A DNA stretch of 43,226 nt from a virus: positions 1 through 43,226 of IMG/VR virus record IMGVR_UViG_3300027962_000001, one strand, 5' to 3'. Positions 10,399-31,823 of the stretch are shown piece after piece (position 1 is the first letter of the stretch; the number at the start of each line of letters is the position of its first letter). Under the pieces are notes generated by a model. It was not told where the DNA came from. It saw only the letters and a program-made list of their open reading frames with translations, and made no database searches. A program made the position numbers and the translations under genes.

Positions 10399-10412
10399 TT
10401 TAATTAAAAAAG

Positions 10413-15004: not shown

Positions 15005-15016
15005 GCTGGGCCTCCT

Positions 15017-16417
15017 CTATGTGGCCTCGATCCGGCGCTGGGTCGTGAGGCTCTCAATGGTACGCTGGACCGTCAGGCTTTCGATCTCGGTATCCACCAC
15101 GTCCAGCGGAGCCGCCGCCGAGGCGCTCGGGCTGGAGCTCGGGCTCGGACTGCTCGACGGGCTCTCGCTCGGCGATGCCGAGGGCGTCCCGGATGGGCTT
15201 GCTGACGGCGATGCGCTCGGCGTTCCGGAAGGAGAAGCCGATGGTGTCCCGCTCGGCGAAGCACTCGGGCTCGCCGAGGGTGTGCCGCTTGCCGACGCAC
15301 TCGGGGACTCGGACGGGCTCGCCGAAGGTGATGCACTCGGACTCGGGCTGCTGGACGGGCTGGCGGATGGCGTGCCGCTCGGACTCGCCGAAGGGCTCGC
15401 GCTTGGCGAGGCGCTGGGGCTCGCCGATGGCGTCCCTGAAGCCGACGATGACGGGCTCGCGCTGGGACTCTCGCTCGGACTGGCCGAGGGTGACGCAGAC
15501 GGGCTCGCTGACGGGCTCGGGGAGCTGCTCGGTGAACTGCTGGGCGTCCCCGATGCCGAGGCCGATGGGCTTTCGCTCGGAGACGCCGATGGCGAAGCGG
15601 ACGGGCTCTCGGAAGGTGTCCCCGATGGACTGGCGCTTGGGCTCTCGCTTCCCGCCGGACCAGAAGCGGACGGGCTGCTGGACGGGGAGGCGCTGGGACT
15701 CGCGCTGGGGGACTCTGACGGGGTGCCGGACGGCGATTCTGACGGAGTGCCGGACGCGCTCGCAGACGGTGACGCTGACGGTGAGGCCGATGGGGTGCCG
15801 CTCGGTGAGGCCGATGGACTCTCGCTGGGGCTGGCGCTCGGCGACGCAGAAGGCGACTCCGAAGGTGATTCACTCGGCGTCCCGCTCGGACTTGCGCTGG
15901 GCGAGGCGCTGGGGGAAGCACTCGGAGAGGGAGAACTTGACGGGGAAGAGGACGGCGTACCGCTCGCGCTCGCAGACGGGCTTTCGGACGGCGAGGCAGA
16001 AGGGGACTCCGAGGGAGTCCCGCTCGGGCTGCTGCTCGGCGTCCCGGAGGGGCTCGCACTCGGGCTTGCAGAAGGCGAAGCACTCGGAGACGCAGACGGC
16101 GATGCGCTGGGCGAGGAAGACGGGCTCGGGGAACTGGACGGGCTGGAGGAGGGCGTCCCCGATGGGCTGGAAGAGGGCGATTCAGAGGGAGAGGCCGACG
16201 GCGTCCCAGACGGAGAGCTGGACGGGGATTCGCTCGGTGATGCGCTGGGGCTGCTGCTCGGCGTGCTGGAGGGTGACGCGGAGGGGGAGGAGGTGCCACC
16301 CGCCGCCACATCATCCGGCACCAGCCCCGCGCTGATGTAATAGCTGTTGCTCGTCGCCCCGGAACTGTTGTCTATCGGGACGAGACCAGCGGATATGTAG
16401 TATTTGTTGGTGGCCAC
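15017..16417 (-). CDS. Ser/Pro-repeat (mucin-like) fibre protein
   Basis: A 466-residue protein in three parts. Residues 1-44 hold two copies of an approximately 19-residue unit around Y-Y-I-S-A-G-L-V-P. Residues about 45-432 are tandem tetrapeptides of the form (S/T)-P-S-x, with x mostly A, S, E or G, broken once by G-P-A-G-S-E. The last about 34 residues contain a duplicated I-E-S-L-T-x-Q-R motif. The repeat would form an extended, polyproline-type rod, and its Ser/Thr density makes it a good acceptor for O-glycans. The gene starts at GTG 16417, overlapping the previous stop by one base. It lies a few genes downstream of a sugar-transferase cluster. There are no cysteines and no signal peptide. 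I infer a virion fibre or surface decoration. Confidence 0.7.
   Translation of the reverse strand: MATNKYYISAGLVPIDNSSGATSNSYYISAGLVPDDVAAGGTSSPSASPSSTPSSSPSASPSESPSSSPSGTPSASPSESPSSSPSGTPSSSPSSSPSPSSSPSASPSASPSASPSASPSASPSGTPSSSPSGTPSESPSASPSESPSASASGTPSSSPSSSPSPSASPSASPSASPSGTPSESPSESPSASPSASPSESPSASPSGTPSASPSASPSASASGTPSESPSGTPSESPSASPSASPSSSPSASGPAGSESPSASPSGTPSESPSASPSASPSESPSASASGTPSSSPSSSPSPSASPSASPSASPSESPSASPSSSASGTPSASPSASPSASPSASPSGTPSASPSSSPSPSASPSASPSESPSASASGTPSASPSASPSGTPSASPSGTPSASPSASPSGTPSASPSESPSSSPSPSSSPSASAAAPLDVVDTEIESLTVQRTIESLTTQRRIEAT
15122..16285. repeat. Coding tandem repeat of about 12 bases
   Basis: The centre of the fibre gene is an uninterrupted array of degenerate 12-base units, each coding (S/T)-P-S-x, about 97 in all. 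Units differ by synonymous changes, so the array is old enough to have drifted, yet the register is fully preserved. Unit number may vary by recombination. Confidence 0.85.
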
Positions 16418-17430
16418 TATGGAATCTCCACCGCCTCACGGCGATAGGTTGCGTCAGACGTTAAGTTGTAATCATCGCTCGCCGGGTCCTCGAATCCCTC
16501 GTCCGTGTCGGTGCCATTTGTCGTAATGGTTGAAGAGCCATCATTCAGCACTTCGTCATAATACCCTGTGATTTCATTGGTGTCGTCGCCGTAGTAATAG
16601 AAGATTGGGATACGCTGTGCCGCATCTATCTCAACTCCATGCCCACCATTGGAGGCGGCGCGAGAGCAAAGGAGAGGGAACGAATCATTCAAAACATCAT
16701 AGCCATCATCTGTGTTGTTATACGATGTGCAGTGAATATTGGAAAATACAGAGTCAAGCCCACCATACAAATAAAACCCATCACTCCCGTTGTCGTGTGC
16801 GATACACCCGATAAAGCCGGTATCATATCCCTTGAACCCATAGGTGCTGTTATTGTCAGCACGACAAAACGCGAGCAGGCAATATCTTGGGTCCTCCCAG
16901 CCGTTCCCGGCATTGTCGTAACTCCTGCAACGCAAAAATGTCGCGAATCGCATGTACCCAGCACCACAGTCGATTCCTGTGTGGCAATTATGGACAATGA
17001 CGTTGATAAATCTGCAATTATTAGAGTACGCAGCCGCAGTTACGATTCCGTCATTGCCGCTCGCCTCATTCGTATTGTGGATCTCGAAGTTCTCAAGCCA
17101 AAAATGACCGCAGCCATTAAACTTCAAAATATCAAACGCCCCGTCATTGCCGTCCAAAACGGCACGGGTCGAGCCGCCGACATTGTTCCCGCTCGCGTCT
17201 ACGCCGATGAACTTGCAATAACCGTCTGCCACGGTTCCAGCGTTCGTGCTGGTCAACTCCAAACCGGAGGAGAGCGTGTCGGTCCCCCGACAGTAGACGG
17301 TATCCCCCTCCCCTGGCGCGGTTGAGTTCGTCCCGGCAATGGCATCAGCCATGGTCTGCCAGGCGTTGGACCAATCGGAGCCATCGTTGTTGCCTGTCCC
17401 CAAATCAAAGTCGGCGTAGTAGTCTGTCAT
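16417..17430 (-). CDS. Parallel beta-helix tail spike/fibre protein
   Basis: A 337-residue protein that repeats short turns of the pattern N-G-x-D-G-(I/F/Y), with cysteines and Asn stacked at regular distance (D-N-G-S-D-G-F, Y-N-N-T-D-D-G-Y, S-N-G-G-H-G-V). This is the right-handed beta-helix fold of polysaccharide-binding or -degrading spikes. The first about 40 residues (S-D-W-S-N-A-W-Q-T-M) are the usual capping segment of pectate-lyase-like proteins. No catalytic triad can be assigned by eye. A+T content is higher than in the flanking genes, as expected for an exchangeable receptor module. Confidence 0.7.
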   Translation of the reverse strand: MTDYYADFDLGTGNNDGSDWSNAWQTMADAIAGTNSTAPGEGDTVYCRGTDTLSSGLELTSTNAGTVADGYCKFIGVDASGNNVGGSTRAVLDGNDGAFDILKFNGCGHFWLENFEIHNTNEASGNDGIVTAAAYSNNCRFINVIVHNCHTGIDCGAGYMRFATFLRCRSYDNAGNGWEDPRYCLLAFCRADNNSTYGFKGYDTGFIGCIAHDNGSDGFYLYGGLDSVFSNIHCTSYNNTDDGYDVLNDSFPLLCSRAASNGGHGVEIDAAQRIPIFYYYGDDTNEITGYYDEVLNDGSSTITTNGTDTDEGFEDPASDDYNLTSDATYRREAVEIP

Positions 17431-17771
17431 TGGATCGTATCCTCGTAGTGGTAGACAGTATCCACAAGTTGCCCATCAACGTAGATTTCGTCCTTGTCTG
17501 TCATGTGGCTGCACTCCGTGGCGCACTCGCTCAAGCCCCTCTCGACCCATCCTGGATGCACATGAGAGCACCGACTGACCTGTGTCCAGTTGCCACCGTT
17601 GATTGTCCAAGCGGGGTCTTTCTTGACGTTCGTCCAGTTGCCACCGTTGATGGTAAGTCTTTTGCCTTTGAGAATCACCGTGCCGGGAACAAGCTGACTG
17701 AAGTTCCCCGAATCAATCACGGCACCATCCTTAATGTCATCGCCGGGGTCTCGGAATGAATAATTCGCCAT
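17427..17771 (-). CDS. Small repeat-containing protein of the fibre region
   Basis: A 114-residue protein with two copies of T-I-N-G-G-N-W-T, probably consecutive rungs of a beta-solenoid, then a Cys/His-rich stretch (C-S-H-V-H, C-A-T-E-C-S-H). It may cap or connect the spike that starts four bases before its end. ATG 17771 has GAGGAGG in front and overlaps the previous stop region. Confidence 0.55.
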   Translation of the reverse strand: MANYSFRDPGDDIKDGAVIDSGNFSQLVPGTVILKGKRLTINGGNWTNVKKDPAWTINGGNWTQVSRCSHVHPGWVERGLSECATECSHMTDKDEIYVDGQLVDTVYHYEDTIQ

Positions 17772-17998
17772 CAATCAACCTCCTCGAAATCAAAGAAGTT
17801 GTCCCTCAAATACTTGTAAATCTGCCACGCCAGCGTCATGATCGGGTCCTTGCCGGACTTGATCCACCGGACCCGCTTCTCCCGTGGCAACCTTGCCCAC
17901 ACCTCCTTGCGCTCGTCCATACGGGTCTTGAGCGCGTTGATGTAGGGTTGGATTTGGTCCTTGGCTGTTTCCTGGTTAGTCAAGTTTAATGTCGTCAT
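17771..17998 (-). CDS. Small helical protein of unknown function
   Basis: A 75-residue charged helical protein. ATG 17998 (M-T-T-L-N-L-T-N) is chosen by the GGAGGG in front of it, within the 3' end of the GT2 gene, so the two genes overlap by 23 bases. No family recognised; it links the glycosyltransferase cluster to the spike genes. Confidence 0.55.
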   Translation of the reverse strand: MTTLNLTNQETAKDQIQPYINALKTRMDERKEVWARLPREKRVRWIKSGKDPIMTLAWQIYKYLRDNFFDFEEVD

Positions 17999-18920
17999 AT
18001 GCCCTCCACCCCGGCGGATCAAACCGCTCGATCAACCACTCTAGGGGCAAGTGCGCCCCCGGCCATTTGTCGTTCAGCCACAGATCCCGGCTGTACTTCC
18101 GGGCCTTGTCCACGTCGCGCTGGCTCATCCGGTACGGGAAAGAAGATCCGCCCCCGAACGCGCCCTTGAAATTTTCCGTGCGAAAAAGGTGAGCGAACCA
18201 TGTTTTTCTCGACGTGATCATCTTCCCGCCGGAAAGCCACGTCTTGCACGCCAACTCCGTCCCGAACTGCCCCCATGAGCCGTGCGCTTCGTCCATTCCG
18301 CCCAACTCCCAGAACCGCTCCCGGCGCATGAGGAAACAGGCCCCGATGCAGGACATGGTTTCGACCAGCATCTCATCCGTTTTCTTGATCGCCTTGTCCC
18401 GCTCCTGCCAGTATTGAAAGTGGAGATCCTTGTCGAAACGCCAGCAGATGGTCAGCACGCCGCTCCGCCGCTTCCAGACCATCACCTGCTCGAACTCGGT
18501 CCCGCCGCACTTGCACGCCTCCGGGCGCTTTCCCTGGTAGAAGGTTCGCCCGCAGGCCCCGCATTTCCAGTTGAACGCGTGGAGGTTGTGCATCTGTGGG
18601 ACCATGGTCCAACTCTCCCGGCAGTCCTCCATGAGGGCCACGTCAAAGCCCTGCGCCATGCGGCAATGGCCGTCGAGCTTCATAATGTACTCGGCCCTGC
18701 TGATCCGCGCCCCTTCGTTCGTGGCCGCCCGTTGGCCGATGCTCTCCGAATGATGCACCAGCGTCACCTTGGGGTGATCCTGGATCGGCGGGTCCGGCCA
18801 GTACCCGTCCGCAATAGCGATCACCTCGGTATCGGCCTCGGCGTGCTCCAGCACGTCCTCGATGGTACGCTGGAGGAACTGCTCGTTCCGGGCCGGTATG
18901 ATAACGGAGAGATCGGTCAT
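17976..18920 (-). CDS. GT2-family glycosyltransferase with zinc-knuckle insert
   Basis: A 314-residue GT-A glycosyltransferase. L-S-V-I-I-P-A-R-N-E opens the nucleotide-sugar fold, L-D-G-H (82-85) occupies the metal-binding D-x-D position, and W-G-Q-F-G-T-E-L lies in the acceptor/catalytic area. An unusual insert at about 118-140 carries C-G-A-C and C-K-C-G, a probable zinc knuckle. ATG 18920 overlaps the stop of the previous glycosyltransferase (ATGA). It is part of a coupled five-gene cluster embedded between tail and fibre genes, so its acceptor is plausibly a virion protein or a glycan built on one. Confidence 0.8.
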   Translation of the reverse strand: MTDLSVIIPARNEQFLQRTIEDVLEHAEADTEVIAIADGYWPDPPIQDHPKVTLVHHSESIGQRAATNEGARISRAEYIMKLDGHCRMAQGFDVALMEDCRESWTMVPQMHNLHAFNWKCGACGRTFYQGKRPEACKCGGTEFEQVMVWKRRSGVLTICWRFDKDLHFQYWQERDKAIKKTDEMLVETMSCIGACFLMRRERFWELGGMDEAHGSWGQFGTELACKTWLSGGKMITSRKTWFAHLFRTENFKGAFGGGSSFPYRMSQRDVDKARKYSRDLWLNDKWPGAHLPLEWLIERFDPPGWRAYDDIKLD

Positions 18921-19606
18921 TTTCTGCTCAGCCTGTGGAACAGCCCAAAAGGGTTGAAATCCGCGTCCCCGCAATACTTGCCGTTCGGGAACATGTAGAT
19001 GGGCGGCATGTACTCATGGCCCCGGTATTTCCCCGCCCGCATGGCGGCAAGCCACACGCTCTTGAACCCGCTGTCCTCGCCCTGGGGATACTTCCGGCCC
19101 ACCAGGTCTTCGCGGTAGCCGCCCAATTCGAAAAACACATCCCGCCGCATACAGAACATATTGGCGTGCGGCGTGAGGCGCTTTTTGAGGCGGGAGGGCT
19201 GGAGGCCATACTGCAAAAGGATTGTAGGCGATGCCGTGAATTGCCCGCTCTCGTCAAGCACCCCAAAATGCCGCTTGAAGCCCATGCGGTCCGCGTCACA
19301 TTCCCGAGCGGACAGGATGGTGTCCCGTGGCAGGATGTGATCCAGGTCGACCATCAAAAGCAGAACCCCTTGCGCTTCCCGTGCGCCCAGGTTCCGCGCC
19401 AGGGCCCACGTCCACGGGCGGGTGTCGTGGGTCTGAAGGATGCGGAGGTTTTTCACGCCCACGGTGTCCTCGATGGGCGGGTCCGAGCCGTCGTCCACCA
19501 AGATGATCTCCACGTCGTCCGGGAGATCCATGCGTCCCCACCAAAGGAGCTGCCGCCGCACCACCTCGTGGCTGTTCAAAGCGGGGATGATGATCGAAAG
19601 CCTCAT
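18917..19606 (-). CDS. GT2-family glycosyltransferase
   Basis: A 229-residue GT-A fold enzyme: L-S-I-I-I-P-A-L-N at the start, V-D-D-G-S-D for nucleotide binding, D-L-D-H (87-90) as the metal site, and G-E-D-S-G-F as the catalytic-base region. There is no membrane segment, so it is soluble. It overlaps its neighbours by four bases at both ends (ATGA). It is shorter than many GT2 enzymes but has all the core motifs. Sugar donor and acceptor cannot be predicted. Confidence 0.8.
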   Translation of the reverse strand: MRLSIIIPALNSHEVVRRQLLWWGRMDLPDDVEIILVDDGSDPPIEDTVGVKNLRILQTHDTRPWTWALARNLGAREAQGVLLLMVDLDHILPRDTILSARECDADRMGFKRHFGVLDESGQFTASPTILLQYGLQPSRLKKRLTPHANMFCMRRDVFFELGGYREDLVGRKYPQGEDSGFKSVWLAAMRAGKYRGHEYMPPIYMFPNGKYCGDADFNPFGLFHRLSRK

Positions 19607-20220
19607 TCGCCGAACTCGTATCCGAGCGCGTCGATCTCGGTGCGGTAAATCTCGCGCACGATCTCGATGGAGCGCACGTCATAATAAGCGGTGTATTCCC
19701 GGTGCTTGCTCGCGTTGATGTGCGGCAGCTCCTTCTCTTCATGGAGCCACCCGGCGATGTAGGCCCAGTCCACGCGCAGGTGCTCGTATCGCCCGATGAA
19801 CATTTGGGGGATGATTTTGCCGTTCCACATGAAGGTGGGCGCTTGCGGTCGAAAGTGCCGGTCCACGTTGTCGTATCCCTGGACAAGCTCGCGCTTCACA
19901 AACTCCTTGAACTGGAGCTTCTTCGGGAGCGTTCCGCGCTGCTGGAGGAAAAAGAAGGCGCTCACCACGCGGTCCCAGGGGTTCCGAACGAAGGTGAAAA
20001 GGAGCACGCGGTTGCGCTCCAGCCGTGGCACCACCACCTGCTCCCACACGCGCCGCCAGTTGCGGACGCCCCGGCGGTGGTACACCTGCCGATAGTCCAG
20101 GATGCCGAGCATCATGGACTTTTGGGCTGTTTTGGCGTTTCCGAAACAGGCCCACCGGCCCGCAGCGTCTACCGCAGGCAGGAGCGAGCCGAGATACTCG
20201 ATCAGCTTGGGATCCATCAT
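19603..20220 (-). CDS. Sulfotransferase (Sulfotransfer_2-like)
   Basis: A 205-residue protein resembling carbohydrate sulfotransferases. The N-terminal N-A-K-T-A-Q-K-S (28-35) corresponds to the PAPS 5'-phosphosulfate loop, and F-T-F-V-R-N-P-W-D-R (75-84) is the 3'-phosphate-binding segment, which is nearly canonical. The enzyme would move sulfate from PAPS to a sugar hydroxyl. It lacks the membrane anchor seen in eukaryotic members. Its start overlaps the methyltransferase stop (ATGATG), and its end overlaps a GT2 gene, giving tight coupling to glycan synthesis. Confidence 0.75.
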   Translation of the reverse strand: MMDPKLIEYLGSLLPAVDAAGRWACFGNAKTAQKSMMLGILDYRQVYHRRGVRNWRRVWEQVVVPRLERNRVLLFTFVRNPWDRVVSAFFFLQQRGTLPKKLQFKEFVKRELVQGYDNVDRHFRPQAPTFMWNGKIIPQMFIGRYEHLRVDWAYIAGWLHEEKELPHINASKHREYTAYYDVRSIEIVREIYRTEIDALGYEFGE

Positions 20221-20828
20221 GCCTTCTCCGCTCCCCGTTCCCAAAATGCCGTGGGCTCATAGTCCCGCGTCACGTACCACGGCTCGATTCGATGGCAGTG
20301 GGTGTAGGCGTCAACCGCTTTCATCACGCCGCCGAGGCGCATGGTGCAGTAGTCGTGGATGAGCACCAGTCCGCCCTTTCGCACCTTGGGCACCCACCGG
20401 ATGATGTCCATGCACGCCGGGTCGAAGTCATGGTCGCCGTCGATGTTCACGAAATCCAGAGAGCCGCCCTCGAAGCGGTCCACCGCGTCCATGCTGGACA
20501 TGCGGAGGACCTGCACCCGCTCTCCGTAGGGGGAAAGGTTTTTCACCGCATCCCTCCACCGCTTGTCCTGGTCCGCTTGCGAGACTTTGCCGTAAGCTCT
20601 CCACGGGTCGATGCACGCCAAATGCAGATCCGGCATGGCATCGAGCCAGATGCGCGACGACTGGCCGTACTTGATCCCGATCTCCGCAGCCACCTTGTAG
20701 CCCCTGGAGGCCATGAATCTCGCCAAATCCTTCCGGCCCCGGTTCCGGCCACTTCGAGGGGTTGCCAGAATCGGAAGGTTGTCCGGTCCCTGGTTGAAGC
20801 GAAAAAACTCGCGCAACTCATCCTGCAT
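20217..20828 (-). CDS. Class I SAM-dependent methyltransferase
   Basis: A 203-residue Rossmann methyltransferase of the Methyltransf_24 type. Motif I is A-E-I-G-I-K-Y-G-Q-S-S (48-58), the acidic C-I-D-P-W strand lies at 72-76, and N-I-D-G-D-H-D (128-134) is the motif typical of sugar and small-molecule O-methyltransferases, which often bind a metal. In this cluster it could methylate a sugar hydroxyl as a cap. It overlaps the preceding gene by 11 bases and the sulfotransferase by four. Confidence 0.78.
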   Translation of the reverse strand: MQDELREFFRFNQGPDNLPILATPRSGRNRGRKDLARFMASRGYKVAAEIGIKYGQSSRIWLDAMPDLHLACIDPWRAYGKVSQADQDKRWRDAVKNLSPYGERVQVLRMSSMDAVDRFEGGSLDFVNIDGDHDFDPACMDIIRWVPKVRKGGLVLIHDYCTMRLGGVMKAVDAYTHCHRIEPWYVTRDYEPTAFWERGAEKA

Positions 20829-21501
20829 TGAAGTGCCTCACGATGTTCTTTGCCTTACCCCAATAGGGAATGTCCCAAGCCTTCATCTCGCCCCTGATTC
20901 TCTTCATGCCGGGACGGCCCAGGTACGTGGGAGACAGCCCCCGGTCATGACACAGGTTCACGATGGGTACCTTTGACCAGAACTCCACGGCCTTCCTGGG
21001 TGTCACGCCGAGCCTTTTCTCCATCCTGCCGATCTCTCCATGAACCTCAGAGCCGTTGGGGTGCTTCTCCATGCGCTCCGAAAGCGCCTCCACCACCAGG
21101 GCCGTGGGGCCGATCATGGCAAAGTTCCCGCGTCGGCGGATCATGCCGAAGACCGGCCTGCGGTCCCAACTGAAGACCGACCACCGGGCCCGGTTGTAGG
21201 CCACGGCGTCGGCGGGAGGCCGGAAGTCGCTGAAGTGCCGATCCGAGTAAAGCGTATCGTCCTCGGTTACGGCCACGAACTCGGTCTCGGCCATCCGCGC
21301 CGCCCGGAGCATCTGCCGGTAGACGTTCCAGCCGGATTTCTCCTCCGTCTGGATGAGGTTCGTGCCGAGCGCCATGGGCTCGCGAGAGACAGAGATCACG
21401 GGCCGGTCCCCGATGGCCTTGAGCAGATGGGTCATCTGAAACGCCGCCCAGGATGGCGGGAGGTCGTTGCATGTAAGGAATATGATGGTGAGGTCGGTCA
21501 T
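20818..21501 (-). CDS. Glycosyltransferase-like protein (GT-A fold)
   Basis: A 227-residue protein with a GT-A-like start (L-T-I-I-F-L-T-C-N-D) and an acidic T-E-D-D-T (79-83) at the D-x-D position, followed by an aromatic and basic C-terminal half. It differs from standard GT2 enzymes and I cannot place its family. ATG 21501 overlaps the stop of the large tail protein by four bases, so the glycan cluster is coupled directly to tail gene translation. Confidence 0.65.
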   Translation of the reverse strand: MTDLTIIFLTCNDLPPSWAAFQMTHLLKAIGDRPVISVSREPMALGTNLIQTEEKSGWNVYRQMLRAARMAETEFVAVTEDDTLYSDRHFSDFRPPADAVAYNRARWSVFSWDRRPVFGMIRRRGNFAMIGPTALVVEALSERMEKHPNGSEVHGEIGRMEKRLGVTPRKAVEFWSKVPIVNLCHDRGLSPTYLGRPGMKRIRGEMKAWDIPYWGKAKNIVRHFNAG

Positions 21502-23426
21502 CGATAAAAGCTCGCGTCCAGACTGATGGTCAGCAGCGTGTTCGCGCTGTATCCCTTGGCCGTGTAGTAAGCCTCGATCAGGTCCTCGACGGCCGTCTCC
21601 AGGGCGCTCGAAACCGTCGCGGCCGTGGGATCCGCGCTCTTCCCGTCGTTGTCCGGGTACATGTCCGCAGCGGCCTGAATGAACAGGTGATGATCGTCCG
21701 TGATCCAGGCCCCACCGGAGTAGGATTCGGTCAGCGCCTGGTACACGTAGAGCTGGACCGCAGCCGAGGGACAGCAGAGAGTCTCGATCACGCGCTGGTC
21801 TGAGCCCTCCAGGCGGCCCTTGTCGGACTGAAGGGCGTAGGTGGCGCCCTGCGTCTGGGCCCCGGTGAGCGTCCCGATGCTCTCGAGGTGAGTGGTGAAG
21901 CTGTATTTGTCCGAGATGGTTTTATCGTTGTCGTCCGGCTCCGAAGGATCGGTGTAAATCGAGTCGGCATACTCCAGCACCAAATTCCAGTTCGTGTACT
22001 CCGTGTCGTCCACCCCCAGGGGGCCCGGAACGCTCAAGGCCAAACCGTGCTGCCAGAACACATCGACCTCTTCCGTCAGGGTCGTGAAGAAGTACCCGTC
22101 CACGCCAGAGTCGTTCGCTGAAGACAGAATGTTTGTCCCGGCCGCAAGCGTTGACCCCTCGATGTGCCGGCCCCATTTTTCCCGGGCGTTGTAGGTGTGG
22201 GCGGTTTCCCATGTGGTCACCTCTTCGGTGTCCCAGTCGTCCTCATTGCACGAGAGGATGTAAAGCTGCCCCCACTTGTCGTGAGTGTCATAATGTTGCA
22301 GGGTATGGCCGGTCAGGCTGTTCCAAGTCGTGTTCTGGCGGTTGATGCGCTTCTGTTCCGTCTCCGCCTCCCACGGCCCGCCCGTGGAGCACGCTCCCCA
22401 TGCAATCGGAAATTGGCGATTCCAGGCCATCGCATCATGGATGGAGCTGTCGGTCGAATAAGACCGCCACGGGTGGTTGTAGTCCGTGGTATTGTCCCGA
22501 AACGAATCGTCCGAACCAGGGCCGCTCCCCAGTGTGAAGACGGAGGCGGTGTCGGCCTCCTCTGTTTTGGCGCCCAGCCAGGTCTCAATGTCGGCCCAGG
22601 CGCAAGGGAAGGTGACGCTCGTAATCTCCTCCAGGCGGTCCTGCTCGATATTCCAAACGATGTACCGCCGTTCGCTCTCAGCCGCGCCTCCGCAGCGAAG
22701 CACGAGGTAGGTCGTGCAGGTCTTGGGGTTCGTCTTAAAGCCGATGATCACGGGGCTATCCCAGTCCTGATCGGTGAACTCGACCACCACCTCGTCGCCG
22801 ACGTCGAACGCATCCTGGTCGCAGCTCATGTAATCGAACGGCACGCCCGAGAGGGTGGTGGTCTGGTTCACGTCCAGGTCCTGCTGCGAGCTGGTGGCCG
22901 CGTCCAGGGTGACGCTCGCAAGCCCCCCGTCGAGCGCCGTGATCGTCCCGGTTCGAAAGGTGGGCATGTACTTTTGCCAGACGGGCAGGAGGGCCCAATT
23001 CCAGAAAACCCCGGCTGGCGTCCCAGCCTCGGGGCCTTCGAGTTGACCGTCCCGGGCGGAATCATAGGCGGCATTCCCCTCGTAGCCGGGTTGAATAAGA
23101 ACAGTCTCAGGCTCGCCCGGCACCTCGATGGTCCCCACCTCTCCGGTGAGGTCCTCGGTGAGATCCGCGCACCAGATCGTCCGCTCGTCCGCCGTGTACT
23201 CGGCCTGCCAGGCCTGCACCCGCTCAAGACGCCGCTCAAGGGCGCTTTTCTCCAGCTCGGCCCGGTCCTTGGCCGCACCATCGGAGAGCGTGGCGATGTA
23301 GGCGGTATAACCGGCGATCCTGGAGGTGAGGCGTGTGGCCTCGGCCGTGAGCCGATCCTCGCTCCACTCCAGGCGCACGATGTACTGCCCGTCGTCGCCG
23401 CCCGATATGATGGTGCCCTTCCCCAT
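21498..23426 (-). CDS. Large tail/baseplate protein of unknown class
   Basis: A 642-residue protein. The N-terminus (I-S-G-G-D-D-G-Q-Y-I-V-R-L-E-W) and a following helical hairpin are of a type seen in phage tail-tip proteins. A central part has several Cys residues and many Trp, and the C-terminal about 120 residues are helical. It follows a hub-like gene and precedes the fibre region, so it is likely part of the tail tip. No enzymatic motif is visible. Confidence 0.6.
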   Translation of the reverse strand: MGKGTIISGGDDGQYIVRLEWSEDRLTAEATRLTSRIAGYTAYIATLSDGAAKDRAELEKSALERRLERVQAWQAEYTADERTIWCADLTEDLTGEVGTIEVPGEPETVLIQPGYEGNAAYDSARDGQLEGPEAGTPAGVFWNWALLPVWQKYMPTFRTGTITALDGGLASVTLDAATSSQQDLDVNQTTTLSGVPFDYMSCDQDAFDVGDEVVVEFTDQDWDSPVIIGFKTNPKTCTTYLVLRCGGAAESERRYIVWNIEQDRLEEITSVTFPCAWADIETWLGAKTEEADTASVFTLGSGPGSDDSFRDNTTDYNHPWRSYSTDSSIHDAMAWNRQFPIAWGACSTGGPWEAETEQKRINRQNTTWNSLTGHTLQHYDTHDKWGQLYILSCNEDDWDTEEVTTWETAHTYNAREKWGRHIEGSTLAAGTNILSSANDSGVDGYFFTTLTEEVDVFWQHGLALSVPGPLGVDDTEYTNWNLVLEYADSIYTDPSEPDDNDKTISDKYSFTTHLESIGTLTGAQTQGATYALQSDKGRLEGSDQRVIETLCCPSAAVQLYVYQALTESYSGGAWITDDHHLFIQAAADMYPDNDGKSADPTAATVSSALETAVEDLIEAYYTAKGYSANTLLTISLDASFYR

Positions 23427-24721: not shown

Positions 24722-24724
24722 CGC

Positions 24725-25243
24725 TTACGCGCTGCTCGCCGAAATCGTGATCGTGATTTTGAGGACGTCATTGCTGGCCACGCTTTTGGAGCTGCTGAAC
24801 TTGGCCGCGCCGAAAAGCACCGCGTCCGTGGCCGCCGTATCGCCCTTGGAGTTATCGGAGACCAAAGCCGCGCCATAGATGGTCTCGCTCGTGGACATGG
24901 TGAAAGACGCCTTGTTGGCGCTGTTCGTCATGCTCTCGCCCGAGGCGGCGGCCTCGTTGTACTCCTGGCGGCTCGCCTCGGAATAGTTGCTGCTCTCGGT
25001 GTAGGTGGGCGAAGCGTAGGTATCGCCGGAGGCCGGCGTCACGTCGTCATTGAACAACGCCACGTACCAGGTGGAGGTCTGGGTGCTCCCGTGGAACATC
25101 ACGTCCAGGAGGTTGTTCAGGCCCTCGTTCGTCACCACGTTGTGGTCCCGAGTCACGTCCGCGATCCAGCCCTCGCTCCGAAAGCTGCATTTTCGCCAGT
25201 GCTCCACTTCGTAAATCGAGCCCACTTTCACTTTTACCTTCAT
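24725..25243 (-). CDS. Tail protein, small beta domain
   Basis: A 172-residue Ser/Thr-rich beta protein. The segment N-L-L-D-V-M-F-H-G-S-T-Q followed by W-Y-V-A-L-F-N-D occurs widely in phage tail proteins of unknown exact role. SD AGGACCAGAG before ATG 25243. Position after the tape measure suggests a tail-tip or distal-tail component. Confidence 0.65.
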   Translation of the reverse strand: MKVKVKVGSIYEVEHWRKCSFRSEGWIADVTRDHNVVTNEGLNNLLDVMFHGSTQTSTWYVALFNDDVTPASGDTYASPTYTESSNYSEASRQEYNEAAASGESMTNSANKASFTMSTSETIYGAALVSDNSKGDTAATDAVLFGAAKFSSSKSVASNDVLKITITISASSA

Positions 25244-25255
25244 TCTCTGGTCCTC

Positions 25256-25609
25256 CTATGCTTCCACGTCCGCGCTCTCCACCAGGAACGAGAAGCGGAC
25301 GGGGTCCACGTCGATTCGAAGGGGGCGGATGGCCCCCAGGAACAGGCCCTCCTCGCAGGAGAGCAGGAGCTGGGTTTCCGTCTGCACCCAGTCCCGAAGG
25401 ATGTCCCGTTCATCGTCGGAAATCTCGGGCCACTCGATCAGAAACGTCCGGTCCCCGGCGCTGTACCCCAGATGGGTGATCACAGCGTTTCCGTCCAGGG
25501 TGGCCGCCCGCGTGATCCGGGGCGAGATGGGACCATAGTTGGTCCCCGGCCCCGGCGAGATCACCAGGGGGGCGTTGGCGTTGCTCGTAACGGTCGTCAG
25601 AATGATCAT
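25256..25609 (-). CDS. Small tail protein downstream of tape measure
   Basis: A 117-residue beta-rich protein beginning immediately at the tape measure stop (25610). It occupies the position of lambda M or the distal-tail proteins of other siphophages, which join the tube end to the tip. No sequence motif decides between these. Confidence 0.55.
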   Translation of the reverse strand: MIILTTVTSNANAPLVISPGPGTNYGPISPRITRAATLDGNAVITHLGYSAGDRTFLIEWPEISDDERDILRDWVQTETQLLLSCEEGLFLGAIRPLRIDVDPVRFSFLVESADVEA

Positions 25610-28312
25610 CTACACCCCCAGGAGGAAGCTCGCGCCTTCCTCGGTGGCCCGAACCTGGATTTGCTGTACGATCTCGAACATGAACGCCTCAAGGTGCGGC
25701 TGGAGGCCGGCGCCGTCGATCTGGATCATCACGTCGTCGCCTGTTTGGGCCCGCTCGGCCCGAGCCTCGGCGATCTTGGTCTGGGCTTCCAGGAGGCGGG
25801 TCTGGAGCCCCTCCTTTTTCTCCGCGCTCTCCACCTGGCGCTCCAGCTCCTTGAGGAGACCAGCCCGGCCGGAGGAGTACGGCCCCATGCCGGAGAGTTC
25901 ACCCAGCAGGTCCGTGATGGCCTTCCCGCTCTCGCCGATCCCCTCCTGGAGGGTCTCCAGGGCCGTCTGCTCGGTATCGGCCTGGGCCTTGATCTTCTCC
26001 TCCTGGACCCCCATAAGGGCCTTGTACCGCTCCGTGTCGCCCTCCATGCGGGCGATCTCCAACTCCTGGAGCCGCTCCTCCCGCTTGGCCAGGGCCTCGA
26101 TGGCCTTTTGGGCGTCCTCGGTGGCCTTGGCGTCCATCTTGGGCTTGATGGCCACGTCCTTCTCGGAGGGGATTCCCTGTTCCAGCTCTTTGGTGACCTT
26201 CTTCGCCCCGTCCGCCGCGCTCTCGGCCGTCCCGTCCATCATGGCCTGGACGTGGCGCATGATGTCGTCTGCGCTCTCGCCCACGGCCGAGGAAGTGATG
26301 GAGGCGGTCTCCTCGGCAGAATCACCCACGCTCCTCACCGACTGGGCCGCCGCCCGGGTCTCCCCTGACAGCCCGCTCCAGGCCTGCGCGAGACGACTCA
26401 CCGCCTCCTCGGAGTTCTTCCCGACCTGGGCCTGGAGCTCCTCGTTCATGACCTTGAGCTCGTCCCGGAAGCTGGCGATGCCTTCGCTCACCCCGCCCAG
26501 GCCCGGGATGATGCCGGAGAGTTTTTCTGGGATGTAGGTAATGGCGCTCAGGAAATTCACCACCAGTTGCGCCATGCGGGAGAAGATAATCTCCAGCTCG
26601 TTCCAGACGAACCCCACGGCGCCGGCCACGGCATTGAAGACGTTCGTGATCTCGGCCCCGGACTTCTCGATGGCCGCGAGAGCCAAACCGATCTTGACGC
26701 CCGCCTTGGCGATCAACTCAGCAGCCCCGAGGAACTCCCCGGCCGCAATCTTGCTCGAGTTGTCCAGTTCGTTGAACCGCGACACGCCTTCCCGGATGGA
26801 GTCCCAAACCGGATCCAGGTACCGGACCATGCCCTCGGTCACCCGGACCAGGCTCTCCAGCGTGTCCACCACGCCCTGCATGGCGTCGCTCAAGCCCTCT
26901 GCCGTGCTGAGGTCCACCTCGTCAAAGAGGAGCCCGAATTGCCCGGCCAGGTCCCGGATGGCGTCCACCAGGCCGCTCCAGTCCACGGCCTCGAAGGCCT
27001 CCGGGAGGTTCTGGGCGATGGTCTCCAGGGCCGAGGCCAGGTCCTCCCCGAAGGCGTCCACCGCGTCGAAGATCTCATCCAGGGATCCCGCATCGACCTC
27101 GCTGCTGATGGCCCGGAAGATGTCCCGGGTGGCATTGGTCACATCGGTGGCCGCCGGGGCGAGGTTCTCGCCGAGGTTCAGAAAGACCGACTCCATGGCC
27201 GAGCGAAGGCTCCGCATGGCCCCGCCCATACCGCTTTCCATCTGGGCGGCGATCTCCCCGGTCACGCCCCCCAGCTCGCGGATCCGGGTCTCCAGACCCC
27301 TGACCGCATCGCTCCCCTGTTCCAACAACGCGGCCATCTGGGGCCCGCCCCTCTTGCCGAAGATCTCCACCAGGGTGGCCGCCCGGTCCGCGGGGTCCTG
27401 GATCCGAGAGAGTCCCGAGGACACCTGGACCATGATCTCGGTGAAGGGGCGGAGGTTGCCGGTGGAGTCCTTCACCTCCACACCCAAGCTCTTGAGGGCG
27501 TTCGCGCTGGAGGCCAGGTCGATCCCCATCTCCTCGGTGTTCACCCCCAGCTCCTTGAAGAGCTTCCCCATGTTCCCGGCCGGCGCCACCAGGGCGAGCA
27601 GGATGTTCCGAAGGGCCGTGCCGCCCTTCTCCGCCTGATACCCCGCATTTCCCAAGGTGCCCAGGATGGCCGCGGTCTCCTCCAGGTCCAGGCCCAGGCC
27701 CTTCGCCACGGGGCCCACGAACTTGAACGCCTGCCCCAGTTGCTCCAGGCTCGTGTTGGAGTTCGTGAAGGTTCCGGTCAGGATGTCACTCGCCTGAGAG
27801 AGGTCTTTCACCTCCACCCCGTACCCGGCCATGATGTTCGTCACGATGTCGGCCGTGGTGCCGAGCTCCATCCCGGCGGCCTGGGCGAGGTTCAGAACCT
27901 CCGGCAGAGCCCCGATGGCCTCCTCCACCTGGAAGCCCGCCAGGGCCAGGAACTCCAGCCCCTGGGCCGCCTCGGTGGCCGTGTATCGGGTGGTTTCCCC
28001 GAGGCCTCGGGTGAGATCCGTCAGGCGCTCGTATTCCTCCGCGTTCGCCCCGATCACGCCCTTGACCTTGAGCATGGTGTCTTCGAAATCGGCAAACTTC
28101 TTGATGGAGTAGGCCGCTCCCCCCACCGCCAGCGCCGCCAGCGCCGCGTCCACCTTGAGGACCGCATCCCCGATCTTGGCGAACGGCTGGGCCACGCCCG
28201 CGATGGCGGTCTCCAAACTCCCGAGGGACGAGCGGACCCCCTTGATGGTCTTCGTCACCCGGTCATCGCCCTGAAAGATGATGCTGACGACCTTATCGGC
28301 TGCGCTGGGCAT
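25610..28312 (-). CDS. Tape measure protein (TP901 family)
   Basis: A 900-residue protein with the TP901 tape-measure domain in the first about 350 residues (A-A-Q-G-L-E-F-L-A-L-A-G-F, L-G-Q-A-F-K-F-V-G-P, G-T-A-L-R-N-I). This is followed by hydrophobic segments and long helical coiled coils, ending in a charged helix. It sets tail length; at about 0.15 nm per residue the tail would be near 135 nm (an estimate). ATG 28312 is chosen over an upstream in-frame start because CAGGAGC lies just before it. The start lies inside the -1-frame extension of the tail chaperone, the classical arrangement. Confidence 0.9.
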   Translation of the reverse strand: MPSAADKVVSIIFQGDDRVTKTIKGVRSSLGSLETAIAGVAQPFAKIGDAVLKVDAALAALAVGGAAYSIKKFADFEDTMLKVKGVIGANAEEYERLTDLTRGLGETTRYTATEAAQGLEFLALAGFQVEEAIGALPEVLNLAQAAGMELGTTADIVTNIMAGYGVEVKDLSQASDILTGTFTNSNTSLEQLGQAFKFVGPVAKGLGLDLEETAAILGTLGNAGYQAEKGGTALRNILLALVAPAGNMGKLFKELGVNTEEMGIDLASSANALKSLGVEVKDSTGNLRPFTEIMVQVSSGLSRIQDPADRAATLVEIFGKRGGPQMAALLEQGSDAVRGLETRIRELGGVTGEIAAQMESGMGGAMRSLRSAMESVFLNLGENLAPAATDVTNATRDIFRAISSEVDAGSLDEIFDAVDAFGEDLASALETIAQNLPEAFEAVDWSGLVDAIRDLAGQFGLLFDEVDLSTAEGLSDAMQGVVDTLESLVRVTEGMVRYLDPVWDSIREGVSRFNELDNSSKIAAGEFLGAAELIAKAGVKIGLALAAIEKSGAEITNVFNAVAGAVGFVWNELEIIFSRMAQLVVNFLSAITYIPEKLSGIIPGLGGVSEGIASFRDELKVMNEELQAQVGKNSEEAVSRLAQAWSGLSGETRAAAQSVRSVGDSAEETASITSSAVGESADDIMRHVQAMMDGTAESAADGAKKVTKELEQGIPSEKDVAIKPKMDAKATEDAQKAIEALAKREERLQELEIARMEGDTERYKALMGVQEEKIKAQADTEQTALETLQEGIGESGKAITDLLGELSGMGPYSSGRAGLLKELERQVESAEKKEGLQTRLLEAQTKIAEARAERAQTGDDVMIQIDGAGLQPHLEAFMFEIVQQIQVRATEEGASFLLGV

Positions 28313-28415
28313 GTTGGAGCTCCTGGTAAAAACGCCCCCAGAGGGCTTCCTCAAGGGGCGTCAGAAAACCGAACGGAAGCAGGTCCGGGATCACTTCATA
28401 GAGGAAACGCTGTCC
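28293..28415 (-). CDS. -1-frame extension of tail assembly chaperone (GT-type)
   Basis: After the G-like gene, the -1 frame is open through to TAA 28293 and codes about 40 residues with clear protein character (Y-E-V-I-P-D-L-L-P-F-G-F, E-E-A-L-W-G-R-F-Y). Two G runs on the coding strand (complement of 28414-28418 and 28420-28424) give G-GGG-GAN sequences where the ribosome could slip back one base, before the frame-0 stop at 28391. The extension ends 18 bases inside the tape measure gene, as in lambda G/GT. The exact slip site is not fixed. Confidence 0.65.
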   Translation of the reverse strand, partial: GQRFLYEVIPDLLPFGFLTPLEEALWGRFYQELQHAQRSR

Positions 28416-28915
28416 CCCTCCCCCTCCGACGCCTCTGGAGCAGAGTGCGAGGGCGCTTCGCACTCGGGGGTTTGCCCAGAGGCGCTCGATTCCCCCTCGA
28501 TCTGGGGGCCTTGGCCGGTCAACTCCAGGATCTTGTTCGTGAGGGTGTAGAACTCAACGGGCCAATGCTTGGCGAAGCGGACCACCTGGCCCTGTTTGAG
28601 GGTGGGCTCGACGCTCCCGAGCCGCAAAAGGGCATGGCGCCGGACCAAGTCGTCCGGGACCTTCTCGGAGATCCCCAGGGCCGCCATGGCCGCCTCGGCC
28701 TGGGCCTTGGCCCCGCCGCTGAGCCGCTTCATGAGCTCCACCAGGGCCCGGTTCGTGTCCACCGCCGCATTCGCCTCGGCGAGCTCCTTCCCCTCCAGGC
28801 CGCGAACGACCCAGACCGGCTCACCGTCGAAGAACTCCGCGAGCTCGGGGAGCCGGACCTCGGCCGTGCGGGGCCTGGGCTTTGCGGCCTCGAACGCCTG
28901 AATGTTAAACGTCAT
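28391..28915 (-). CDS. Tail assembly chaperone (G-like)
   Basis: A 174-residue helical, acidic protein (start M-T-F-N-I-Q-A-F-E) lying directly before the tape measure gene. Its end is rich in Glu, Ser, Pro and Gly and covers the proposed frameshift site. Chaperones of this type coat the tape measure during tail assembly, with a minor frameshifted form carrying a T domain. ATG 28915 overlaps the sulfotransferase stop (ATGA), so the chaperone is coupled to the inserted enzyme gene. Confidence 0.75.
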   Translation of the reverse strand: MTFNIQAFEAAKPRPRTAEVRLPELAEFFDGEPVWVVRGLEGKELAEANAAVDTNRALVELMKRLSGGAKAQAEAAMAALGISEKVPDDLVRRHALLRLGSVEPTLKQGQVVRFAKHWPVEFYTLTNKILELTGQGPQIEGESSASGQTPECEAPSHSAPEASEGEGDSVSSMK

Positions 28916-29550
28916 GCCGCCTCCAGGTATCCGAGGTGCCGGAGCATCTCGTCCATGCGGGGTGCGAGCCAAGGGTCCAGTCTGCGGTATTTCTCCAGGT
29001 CTTTCTCCACACGGTGTGCGCCGATAGCCTCCGGGGGATACCTGTCCGTGTGGTCGTCCCCAGGGAAGAATGCCGGGTACTCGCTCCAGAGGTGCTTGAT
29101 CTTGAGGCCGAACCAGTTCGCCACGCCCACCTGGGTGCCGTCCGGGTCTGTTACGAGGTCCTCGTATTGCATGGTCCCGAGCTCCAGGAGTCCGGCCGCC
29201 TGCGCGATCTGGACTTGGCGCATGGACTCATACCAGCGCCTGCAGGAAGCGTAATCGCTCTCCACCACATCCCGGCCGTCCCGGAGGATGCAGAGCACGC
29301 GGATGTCCGGGCGTCCCTGGAGGAGTTCGAGTTGACGCCGCCCCTCCTCCACGGAAAGCTCATTGGAAAAGATGGTCCGAATGGTGCGCTTCCCCACCAA
29401 GACCCGCCCGGACTCGCTCCGCTGGTCCGCAAAGTCGTCCAGGCTGACCTCGTGGGGGATCACCTCGGTCCCCTCAAAGGCGTGGAAGAGGCGCCGGAGC
29501 AGGGTTGTCCCGCTCCGGGCGCATCCCACGATGTAGATCCGGTCCGTCAC
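28912..29550 (-). CDS. Sulfotransferase (classical PAPS-dependent type)
   Basis: A 212-residue protein. G-C-A-R-S-G-T-T (9-16) is the 5'-phosphosulfate loop, and L-R-D-G-R-D (89-94) is the 3'-phosphate-binding motif of sulfotransferase family 1/3. It differs from the protein at 19603-20220, so the phage encodes two unrelated-looking sulfotransferases. It sits between the tail tube gene and the tail chaperone, eight bases after one and four bases overlapping the other, with no promoter of its own. This suggests virion-related timing and dosage. The acceptor is unknown. Confidence 0.8.
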   Translation of the reverse strand: MTDRIYIVGCARSGTTLLRRLFHAFEGTEVIPHEVSLDDFADQRSESGRVLVGKRTIRTIFSNELSVEEGRRQLELLQGRPDIRVLCILRDGRDVVESDYASCRRWYESMRQVQIAQAAGLLELGTMQYEDLVTDPDGTQVGVANWFGLKIKHLWSEYPAFFPGDDHTDRYPPEAIGAHRVEKDLEKYRRLDPWLAPRMDEMLRHLGYLEAA

Positions 29551-29558
29551 GGGGCCTC

Positions 29559-30590
29559 CTAGCTGGAGAAGTTGACGCTCTTGGCCTCCTCCGCCTTGAC
29601 CGGAGTGATGGTGCAGGCCGCCGAGTTCTGCTGGTCTGCCGGAAAACTCCTGGAGGTCCCGAGGGTGCCCTGGGTGAGGATGTACGCGCTCTCATCCTCA
29701 TCCGGGTAGAACCGGACCGTGATGATTTCGTTCTGCTCACTCAGGAGCGCGTCGGTCACGCCGTCGTTCAGGTATGCGGTAAAGCTGCATTGCCCGATGG
29801 ACTTCGAGGATGCCGCCAGGGTCTTGCGGTACACCTGGGTGCTGGTGACCGAATGGCTCTCCTCAGCCGGGACAAAATCCACCGCAGACCCCAACTCGAT
29901 GAACGAGGGCGTGTAATACTGGAGATACACCTTTTTGCAGACCGTTCCCGTGTGGATCTTGGGAAGCGCCGATTGGAACTTGACGTGAGAGTTTTCCTCG
30001 GCCGAACTGTCGGCCTGCTCCCCGTCACCCAGGTGATGGATCTCGTAGCTCGGGTAGTCCGCCCGCTCGGTGTGCGTCCCCACGGTCTGGTAAATCTCCG
30101 AAGAGGCCACGGCGGCGGAGGTGGAAGACGTGATCCGAACCTGGCCCAGCTCCACCGATTCCACGGAGATCAGCGGGGGGCCACCGGCGGCGTCACGGGT
30201 GCTGGAAAACGTGGTGTCGGCGGAAACCGTGCCCTTGACGGAGACGATGGACCCATCCGAGGCCATGGTGATGGAGTAGACCGTCGCCCTGGAGGCCGTC
30301 GTGGGCCGGGTGAACGTGCAGGTAGTGGCGGTCACGGTCTGGAGGGCGCCTTTCGAGTAGGCCGTGAATGCGGCCACCGTCACCTTGTCGTCGTCGGCGT
30401 GGGTGGAGAGCACATTCCGGCCGGAGACGATCCCATTGGGCCGGATGCTCGGCTTATACCCGCTCTTGCCGCTCCAGATGGTCCCGCCGGTGAAGATGGT
30501 TTGGTCCCCGCTGTCCGTCAGCGCGGTGTAGCTGGTGAGGGTTCCGGCGCCGGACTCGATTTCGATCTTTGCATTTTCCGAGGTGGCCAT
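29559..30590 (-). CDS. Major tail tube protein
   Basis: A 343-residue Thr/Ser-rich, beta-rich protein with few charged clusters. It lies in lambda order between the U-like terminator and the G-like chaperone, where lambda V sits. It is longer than lambda V and may carry an extra surface (Ig-like) domain; no motif proves this. SD GGAGGAACACACC before ATG 30590. Confidence 0.7.
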   Translation of the reverse strand: MATSENAKIEIESGAGTLTSYTALTDSGDQTIFTGGTIWSGKSGYKPSIRPNGIVSGRNVLSTHADDDKVTVAAFTAYSKGALQTVTATTCTFTRPTTASRATVYSITMASDGSIVSVKGTVSADTTFSSTRDAAGGPPLISVESVELGQVRITSSTSAAVASSEIYQTVGTHTERADYPSYEIHHLGDGEQADSSAEENSHVKFQSALPKIHTGTVCKKVYLQYYTPSFIELGSAVDFVPAEESHSVTSTQVYRKTLAASSKSIGQCSFTAYLNDGVTDALLSEQNEIITVRFYPDEDESAYILTQGTLGTSRSFPADQQNSAACTITPVKAEEAKSVNFSS

Positions 30591-30611
30591 GGTGTGTTCC
30601 TCCGTTGGTTG

Positions 30612-31823
30612 CTATGGATTGATCCAGCGGGTGCCGGCCTCCTGGAGGTCCGTTTCCGCTCGCTCGCGCTCGGCCGCAGCGGCCTCCTCGGGCAGCTCGG
30701 CCAGCACGCGCTTGTATTGATCCAGGGCCCCCGAAGCCTCGGAGGCCAGGGTGGCCGCCGCCTTCCGCAGCACGTAAGCCTTGCTCTGGGGACAGTAGTG
30801 GTAGACGAACCGGGTGGCCAGGGTGGCGAGGCTCGACTCGAACGCATCGTAGAGCGCCACGTACTGGCGGGCCCCGTCAATGATGAGGTCCGGGCGGCGC
30901 ATCCACTCGCCATAGAGGACCCGGTCATACGCGATGTCGAGGTCCTCCGGGATGTCCTCCCCGGCCATGTCGAGCCACTTTCCGGCCTCCTCGTGCTCGC
31001 CCAACTGGAGGCAGCAATGGAAGAGCACGTTGTAGATGCTGGGATTGAACCGGGGATGCTTCCGCGCGTTCGCCACGTACTTCCGGCCGTGAACCAGGGC
31101 CCCCTCGTGGTCGTCGCGCTTGGCTGCGATGTGGGAGAGGTAGAAGTAGGCCCGATGGGCCTCCCCGGGGCCGTCCTGGAGCTCGCGCCGGATGATCTCC
31201 TCGGTCCGCTGGAGCTTCCGCTCCATGGCCTCGGGGGTGAGGTCATATCCCCAATGGCGAACCTTCACGCCCTCCAGGAGCGCTAGGGCCCCCTTGTGCT
31301 TGAGCACGTTGTGGTAGGCGCCCTCCCACACGGGGTTCCGGTCCCGCCGGCAGAATCGCACCTGGCTGAAGACGAGGGCGATGCTGTCGCCCTGCATGTC
31401 CTCGACCAGGACCGCCGCCGCGCCGATGTTCTCCGGCACCCTCGAAAGGATGTTTTTGACCTGCTCCGCCCCCACAAGGGTGTCGTCGGCATCGAGGACC
31501 AGGATCCAGTCGCCCGTGGCGTAGGCGTTGGCGCAGTTGCGGGCCAGCGCGAAGTCCCAAGGTTCGATCACATGCTCGTGGACCTCTGCGCCGAACTCGC
31601 GGGCGATCTCCATGGTGCGGTCCGTGGAGCCGGTGTCCATCACCACGAGCTGGTCGTGGCCGAGGCCCTCCAAGCTCGAAAGGCACCGCGGGAGGCTCTC
31701 CTCCTCGTCCTTCACGATCATCACGACCGAGAGGGTGGGGGAGGAGGCCGGGCGAGAGGCGGATCCGGCCCCCTCCTTCGGGGGAGAGGCAGCCGCGGGG
31801 AAGATGTCTTTTTCGTCGCTCAT
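30612..31823 (-). CDS. GT2 glycosyltransferase with helical repeat tail (SunS-like)
   Basis: A 403-residue protein. After a Pro/Ala-rich leader of about 30 residues comes a GT-A domain: L-S-V-V-M-I-V-K-D-E, D-T-G-S-T-D (63-68), D-F-A-L-A-R-N (90-96) and D-A-D-D (111-114) as the metal site. From about residue 210 the chain is helical with repeated A/L/Y positions, typical of TPR-like arrays. This layout matches peptide/protein glycosyltransferases such as SunS, which modify polypeptide side chains. It could therefore attach the first sugar to a protein. It sits between U-like and tail tube genes with its own SD (TAGGAGCGAC). Confidence 0.8.
   Translation of the reverse strand: MSDEKDIFPAAASPPKEGAGSASRPASSPTLSVVMIVKDEEESLPRCLSSLEGLGHDQLVVMDTGSTDRTMEIAREFGAEVHEHVIEPWDFALARNCANAYATGDWILVLDADDTLVGAEQVKNILSRVPENIGAAAVLVEDMQGDSIALVFSQVRFCRRDRNPVWEGAYHNVLKHKGALALLEGVKVRHWGYDLTPEAMERKLQRTEEIIRRELQDGPGEAHRAYFYLSHIAAKRDDHEGALVHGRKYVANARKHPRFNPSIYNVLFHCCLQLGEHEEAGKWLDMAGEDIPEDLDIAYDRVLYGEWMRRPDLIIDGARQYVALYDAFESSLATLATRFVYHYCPQSKAYVLRKAAATLASEASGALDQYKRVLAELPEEAAAAERERAETDLQEAGTRWINP

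Follow-up and report, generated by a model that had tools for sequence, protein, structure and literature searches.

What do seven sugar-, methyl- and sulfate-transferring enzymes modify when their genes are interspersed with the tail genes of a phage? The question arises from the 43.2 kb window analysed here (the whole stretch of 43,226 nucleotides, IMG/VR record IMGVR_UViG_3300027962_000001), which comes from an uncultured phage. From evidence that is computational throughout, we consider it likely, with a probability of about 0.74, that the phage produces a mucin-like glycoprotein of its own: a cassette of five enzymes would O-glycosylate a virion protein built largely of Ser/Thr-Pro repeats (the SP protein), and a second module probably decorates the tail tube. 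A preliminary description of this DNA had recognized the seven enzymes, including a sulfotransferase (ST2) and a SunS-like family 2 glycosyltransferase (GT2) on either side of the putative tail-tube gene, together with a 466-residue open reading frame (ORF) of (S/T)PSx type at 15017-16417; these positions and classes hold, for the enzyme GTA by predicted fold and otherwise by Pfam. The genes concerned, from upstream to downstream on the minus strand, are as follows.

30612..31823, minus strand: GmaR/SunS-like GT2 with a C-terminal tetratricopeptide repeat (TPR)-like part, candidate tail-tube glycosyltransferase (PF00535 1e-16, TPR_19; Pfam)
29559..30590, minus strand: putative major tail (tube) protein, presumed acceptor of the adjacent GT2 (phrog_30644, gene order)
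28912..29550, minus strand: ST2, sulfotransferase of the 3′-phosphoadenosine-5′-phosphosulfate (PAPS) type, Sulfotransfer_3 (PF13469 1e-11, Pfam)
21498..23426, minus strand: tail gene, 642 aa (weak Phage_base_V match; homologues in related tail modules)
20818..21501, minus strand: GTA, small GT-A-fold glycosyltransferase with an EDD motif (predicted fold)
20217..20828, minus strand: MT, O-methyltransferase of TylF/Methyltransf_24 type (PF13578 5e-20, PF05711 4e-5; Pfam)
19603..20220, minus strand: ST1, Sulfotransfer_2 / galactose-3-O-sulfotransferase-like (PF03567 2e-11, Pfam; phrog_3347 1e-17)
18917..19606, minus strand: GT2a, GT2 transferase with a DxD motif and a chondroitin-synthase-like profile (PF00535 2.5e-9)
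17976..18920, minus strand: GT2b, polypeptide-GalNAc-transferase-like, candidate initiator of O-glycosylation (PF00535 2e-13; PDB, fold, motifs)
16417..17430, minus strand: 337-aa protein, repetitive, perhaps beta-helix, coupled to the SP gene
15017..16417, minus strand: SP protein, 466 aa with a (S/T)PSx array of ~385 aa, proposed mucin-like glycan acceptor (PT repeat 5e-12, Pfam)

Co-occurrence of the cassette with Ser/Thr-Pro arrays

Relatives of GT2b are encoded in 441 IMG/VR stretches, and in the best 80 of these we found a Ser/Thr-Pro array (Pro/Ser/Thr-rich, at least 60 aa) in 56 loci against 0 of 44 controls (p=3e-16), the controls being tail-tube loci from related phages, of similar GC, rather than random phages. 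After clustering at 70% identity the counts are 35/46 and 0/28. All 56 arrays are encoded on the GT2b strand at a median distance of 62 nt from the cassette, 28 of them being no more than 100 nt from a cassette gene, and Ser/Thr occupies ~91% of every second position in them. A reciprocal scan, in which a DNA pattern for any (S/T)P(S/T)x-like array was run through IMG/VR blind to the enzymes, returned 120 stretches; cassette enzymes are present in 7 of the 15 stretches with (S/T)PSx arrays and in none of the 105 others, and the count for TPTx arrays is 0/49. Our first expression, SP[ST]x, overlooked arrays of TPSx type and took in an Arg-Ser-rich ORF of L148 that is out of frame (L-numbers denote IMG/VR comparison stretches, many of them partial contigs). 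It was refined after inspection of the data, and the association is significant with either version (p about 1e-5 with the first, 1e-7 with the refined one). The search of other phages for SP-repeat proteins together with these enzymes, which the preliminary description had proposed, is therefore strongly positive from both directions.

The same picture emerged from GT2a. Single-sequence searches for GTA and for the 30612-31823 GT2 gave few loci and alignment searches were needed; with GT2a such a search recovered 27 IMG/VR loci, about half of which hold long S-x-S-P-type arrays, in many cases encoded in overlap with the first enzyme gene (L066, L068, L072). L049 has all five enzymes arranged as in the window, immediately following two SP-repeat proteins (960 and 900 aa). 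The arrangement is also found in L052, L053 and L055, in L050 with SP interposed, and, minus a detected ST1, in L054 and L057. Unrelated phages (L049-L055) share it. Moreover, GT2b carries a C-terminal GTA domain in several phages (hhalign probability 99.7, E 4e-25) and is fused to a Methyltransf_24 domain in L059; proteins joined in this way generally serve a common pathway.

Might any phage GT2 co-occur with such arrays? This was ruled out, for the tail-tube relatives that encode a GT2 have none, nor have L044-L046.

Two further features of the comparison loci were observed. One GT2b-GTA fusion (L064:10720-13059) holds an in-frame homing-endonuclease-like insert between its domains, which matches an endonuclease of Bacillus phage FADO at 39%, and in one GT2b search the top GenBank matches fell on the inserted endonuclease and not on GT2b. 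Larger SP cassettes (L064:8676-14371, L066:8960-11564, L107:11317-12381) add DegT aminotransferase, short-chain dehydrogenase/reductase (SDR) epimerase, GT17 and radical-SAM genes.

The SP protein and translational coupling

The preliminary description had noted overlaps of 4-11 nt among the five consecutive enzyme genes and the adjacent tail gene. Recomputed from the best in-frame starts (ATG 20220 was preferred over TTG 20244 for ST1, and ATG 18920 over TTG 18974 for GT2b), the overlaps in the series tail gene 21498-23426/GTA/MT/ST1/GT2a/GT2b are 4, 11, 4, 4 and 4 nt. The chain continues through genes for proteins of 83 (start uncertain), 115 and 337 aa to the SP gene, with overlaps of 4 nt at the 115-aa gene, 4 nt at the 337-aa gene and 1 nt between the latter and the SP gene. 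The cassette enzymes and the repeat protein therefore constitute one translational unit. The 337-aa protein has no Pfam or PHROG match; its homologue in L072 also adjoins an SP gene.

The array in the SP protein consists of S, P, A, G, T and E only. Its 69 SPSx tetrads represent just 5 peptides and are written in 64 different DNA 12-mers, every one of the six Ser and four Pro codons is used, and exact repeats in the DNA reach at most 17 bp. Such codon diversity, with no longer exact repeat, leads to the conclusion that the array is maintained by selection on the protein and not by DNA slippage; together with strand and residue bias, it also ruled out the SP ORF as an artefact of base composition or slippage. 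A plus-strand ORF at 14760-16340 (526 aa) is an antisense shadow of the array and probably not a gene.

SP arrays occur in virion contexts. An array is fused to a head virion protein (phrog_1731, 6e-25) in L125 and shares one protein with a tail-type YQBQ-like domain (below the curated cut-off) in L070; LamG (lectin-like) domains accompany arrays in L059 and L068; and the array gene lies directly after the major capsid gene in L107 and between the portal and capsid genes in L050. At L125:6718-8049 two adjoining virion-type proteins both end in SPSx arrays, the one tested being the phrog_1731 head protein.

GT2b as a relative of polypeptide GalNAc-transferases

Does the cassette contain an enzyme that could start O-glycans on such a repeat? 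GT2b is the candidate. Searched against the PDB as a single sequence, its 15 best matches are all polypeptide GalNAc-transferases (ppGalNAc-Ts; E 5.5e-8), and its family profile matches a ppGalNAc-T at E 6e-13. All of the top 50 Foldseek matches of its AlphaFold model (predicted local distance difference test, pLDDT, 90.6) are likewise ppGalNAc-Ts (E 8e-16, query TM-score 0.56-0.67). Residues D83, H85, W216, E222 and H244 are invariant in 81/81 GT2b sequences, and the D-x-H, the Trp of the WG motif and the later, predicted metal-binding, His align to ppGalNAc-T motifs. Because the other GT2s of the window match other families (GmaR/SunS for 30612-31823, chondroitin synthase for GT2a), this likeness is not generic GT2 similarity. 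The GT2 label that GT2b bore in the preliminary description was thus correct as to class, but overlooked the GalNAc-transferase likeness apparent in PDB matches, fold and motifs. We regard GT2b as related to the ppGalNAc-Ts and predict that it works like one. A Cys-rich, zinc-ribbon-like insert at 18540-18630 (WKCGACGRTFYQGKRPEACKCGG), which may help GT2b to bind its acceptor, is present in 68/81 GT2b proteins by a loose pattern; the animal ppGalNAc-T segments in the alignment show none.

As for the other cassette enzymes, GTA has no sequence match in Pfam or PDB and its AlphaFold model (pLDDT 88) resembles the GT-A enzymes SpsA and B4GALNT1 (E about 1e-6), which gives it a predicted GT-A fold, while the GT2a profile matches chondroitin synthase in the PDB at 1.7e-12. 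Judged by enzyme family, the glycan would be both sulfated and methylated. There are no transmembrane (TM)-like segments in the seven enzymes, all of which are soluble by this measure.

The tail-tube module

The 30612-31823 GT2 matches GmaR (8e-24) and SunS (5e-14) in the PDB and, with its GT2 domain, its TPR part and these closest solved relatives, its sequence has GmaR/SunS-type architecture. What would its acceptor be? The putative tube gene has 39 IMG/VR relatives, and a PF00535 GT2 is present in 13 of the 41 records that share it; all 13 adjoin the tube gene or lie one gene away, on either side, and never elsewhere in those records. This recurrent adjacency makes the tube protein the likeliest acceptor. 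In L019 and L027 the tube-adjacent GT2 is fused to a GT4-type domain. ST2, on the other side of the tube gene, contains the motifs RSGTTLL and RDGRDVVE and has a counterpart at the equivalent place in L002 and L008. In Marinobacter phage PS3 the tail module is the same, but with no match to GT2 or Sulfotransfer_3. The glycan system described previously stands, with the refinement that there are probably two modules, one for the SP protein and one for the tail tube.

Elsewhere the gene that immediately follows the tube gene joins a sulfotransferase-like domain to the GmaR/SunS-like GT2 (L040:11023-12840 by Pfam, L003:11115-12902 by eye). A hexapeptide acyltransferase lies between tube gene and GT2 at L022:5136-5729 and L028:11081-11638, which suggests acylated sugars on other phage tails.

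Proposed pathway and alternative targets

We propose that the SP protein forms an extended stalk of Ser/Thr-Pro repeats that belongs to the virion or is attached to it. On its Ser/Thr residues GT2b would start O-glycans in the host cytoplasm, drawing on UDP-GalNAc or a related nucleotide sugar of the host. The glycan would then be extended by GTA and GT2a and capped by MT and the sulfotransferase. Through coupled translation the enzymes would be made along with their acceptor at a late stage of infection, and the GmaR/SunS-like GT2 and its neighbouring sulfotransferase would probably decorate the adjacent tail-tube protein. The likely use would be that of a brush of hydrated glycans carrying negative charge, which would serve in adhesion, in protection from proteases or as a shield. 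The preliminary description had suggested a phage glycan on the phage's own fibre or tail, and the co-occurrence, the virion contexts and the lack of membrane enzymes argue for it. A broader proposition, that many phage lineages make true mucins (long Ser/Thr-Pro virion stalks on which a phage lineage of the ppGalNAc-T superfamily sets dense O-glycans in the bacterial cytoplasm, for a mobile cassette then to extend, methylate and sulfate), we would put at even odds.

Several points weigh against this reading. No array was seen in 24 of the 80 GT2b loci within the stretch examined, some of them truncated, and the 12.9 kb contig with the L125 arrays contains no cassette enzymes, for which enzymes of the host or a truncated contig might account. 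That this particular SP protein sits in the virion is inferred, and the “tail tube” identity of 29559-30590 comes from gene order between tail terminator and tape measure, phrog_30644 having no assigned function in PHROGs. GT2b, of 314 aa, has no ricin lectin domain (no ricin Pfam match) and no membrane anchor (no TM segment), and it carries the extra Cys-rich insert relative to animal ppGalNAc-Ts; for these reasons we do not file it as GT27. Its donor sugar cannot be read from sequence, GalNAc being a candidate only. There was also no GT2b match in 50,697 GenBank phage records, thus no cultured relative there. A search of bacterial genomes of one phylum, which had no positive control, found none either.

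Could the cassette instead glycosylate mainly other virion proteins of the tail and baseplate, with the SP protein an unmodified spacer that travels with it? The direct coupling of the cassette to tail gene 21498-23426 would suit such a role, as would the three unrelated genes that separate GT2b from the SP gene in the window, and mycobacteriophages are known to glycosylate capsid and tail-tube proteins without repeats, as cited below. We nevertheless think it unlikely: the enzymes follow the (S/T)PSx array across unrelated phages, GT2b resembles enzymes that act on Ser/Thr-Pro-rich peptides, and the SP array is packed with Ser and contains neither Lys nor aromatic residues.

Less probable still is that the enzymes are mere morons in the tail operon that modify host surface polysaccharide for seroconversion or superinfection exclusion. 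Phage glycosyltransferases commonly alter host surface polysaccharide, GT2a is similar to polysaccharide synthases, and SDR and aminotransferase sugar genes are also present in L064 and L107. However, lipid-linked O-antigen modification needs a membrane protein and is disfavoured because the cassette has none, nor is there a membrane or bactoprenol-linked component among the seven enzymes; the location in a late structural operon, the association with the array, the domain fusions and the protein-glycosylating classes of the glycosyltransferases also speak against it. Modification of DNA or a small molecule can hardly be credited, for although the PHROG match of MT names a “DNA methyltransferase” family, it spans only the generic methyltransferase region (Pfam gives Methyltransf_24/TylF), and the sulfotransferases, the GalNAc-T-like fold and the operon position do not fit.

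Relation to known glycosylation systems

The mucin-like reading invites comparison with eukaryotic mucin-type O-glycosylation, which ppGalNAc-Ts (GT27) initiate in animals. GT2b shares with them the GT-A fold and the D-x-H, WG...E and H-x-F-R motifs, and the proposed acceptor shares with theirs its Ser/Thr-Pro richness; the phage enzyme differs in domain make-up, as set out above, and in being predicted to be cytoplasmic. GmaR (the Listeria flagellin O-GlcNAc transferase) and SunS (the SPbeta peptide S-glycosyltransferase) resemble the 30612-31823 GT2 in joining a GT2 to a TPR part and have protein acceptors, as tube adjacency suggests for the phage enzyme. Unlike them, the latter adjoins a tail-tube gene, is sulfotransferase-fused or -linked in relatives and has no GmaR antirepressor part. 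Serine-rich repeat (SRR) glycoproteins use a GtfA/GtfB pair and SecA2/SecY2 export, whereas the phage has GT2/GalNAc-T-like enzymes, Ser-Pro tetrads and a virion context; no secretion system was seen in the phage, GtfA/GtfB and Sec2 genes not having been searched as such. From Gtr-type O-antigen conversion, which employs a membrane flippase and a bactoprenol-linked transferase, the system differs in the absence of TM-like segments from its seven enzymes, to which this comparison is confined. In the SRR systems, as described in PMC6973325, a long Ser-rich repeat protein is encoded beside its own glycosyltransferases, and the SP gene is likewise.

The closest precedents are the mycobacteriophages (Che8, cluster O), in which virion capsid and tail-tube proteins are modified by phage-encoded glycosyltransferases and an O-methyltransferase (PMC11600133 and PMC11256854), three glycosyltransferases acting with the methyltransferase in cluster O (PMC11600133, citing Freeman 2023). 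The window's enzymes are of like kinds and are encoded with structural genes; in these reports we found no mention of a sulfotransferase, a GalNAc-T-like enzyme or a dedicated scaffold of Ser-Pro repeats. Phage virion glycosylation, shown in few cases so far and on ordinary capsid and tail proteins, is thus already known, but the mucin-like scaffold, the GalNAc-T-like enzyme and the sulfotransferases appear new, and a literature search for mucin-like phage proteins found nothing. The proposed mucin-like acceptor and the GalNAc-T-like initiating enzyme recur together as a unit, GT2b-bearing stretches numbering 441 in IMG/VR, with none detected among the GenBank phage records. If the reading is right, phages may construct mucins of their own, prokaryotic enzymes would exist for cytoplasmic mucin-type O-glycosylation, and there would be a suggestion of how phages may adhere to or hide in mucus and sediments, with a bearing on the origin of the polypeptide GalNAc-transferases.

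Genome context

The whole region has no match to phage records at the DNA level. The phage is a siphophage and the enzymes sit in its minus-strand late operon, a structural module of TerS/TerL, portal, protease, major capsid, neck, tail terminator, putative tube, chaperone-like, tape measure and distal tail genes (tail terminator, tape measure, neck, capsid, portal and terminase assigned by PHROGs). A plus-strand early arm carries integrase and recombination genes. The integrase gene (8783-9826) lies close to a tRNA-Ser(GCT) gene (10412-10499), from which we consider the phage probably temperate, with the tRNA gene perhaps serving as its attachment site.

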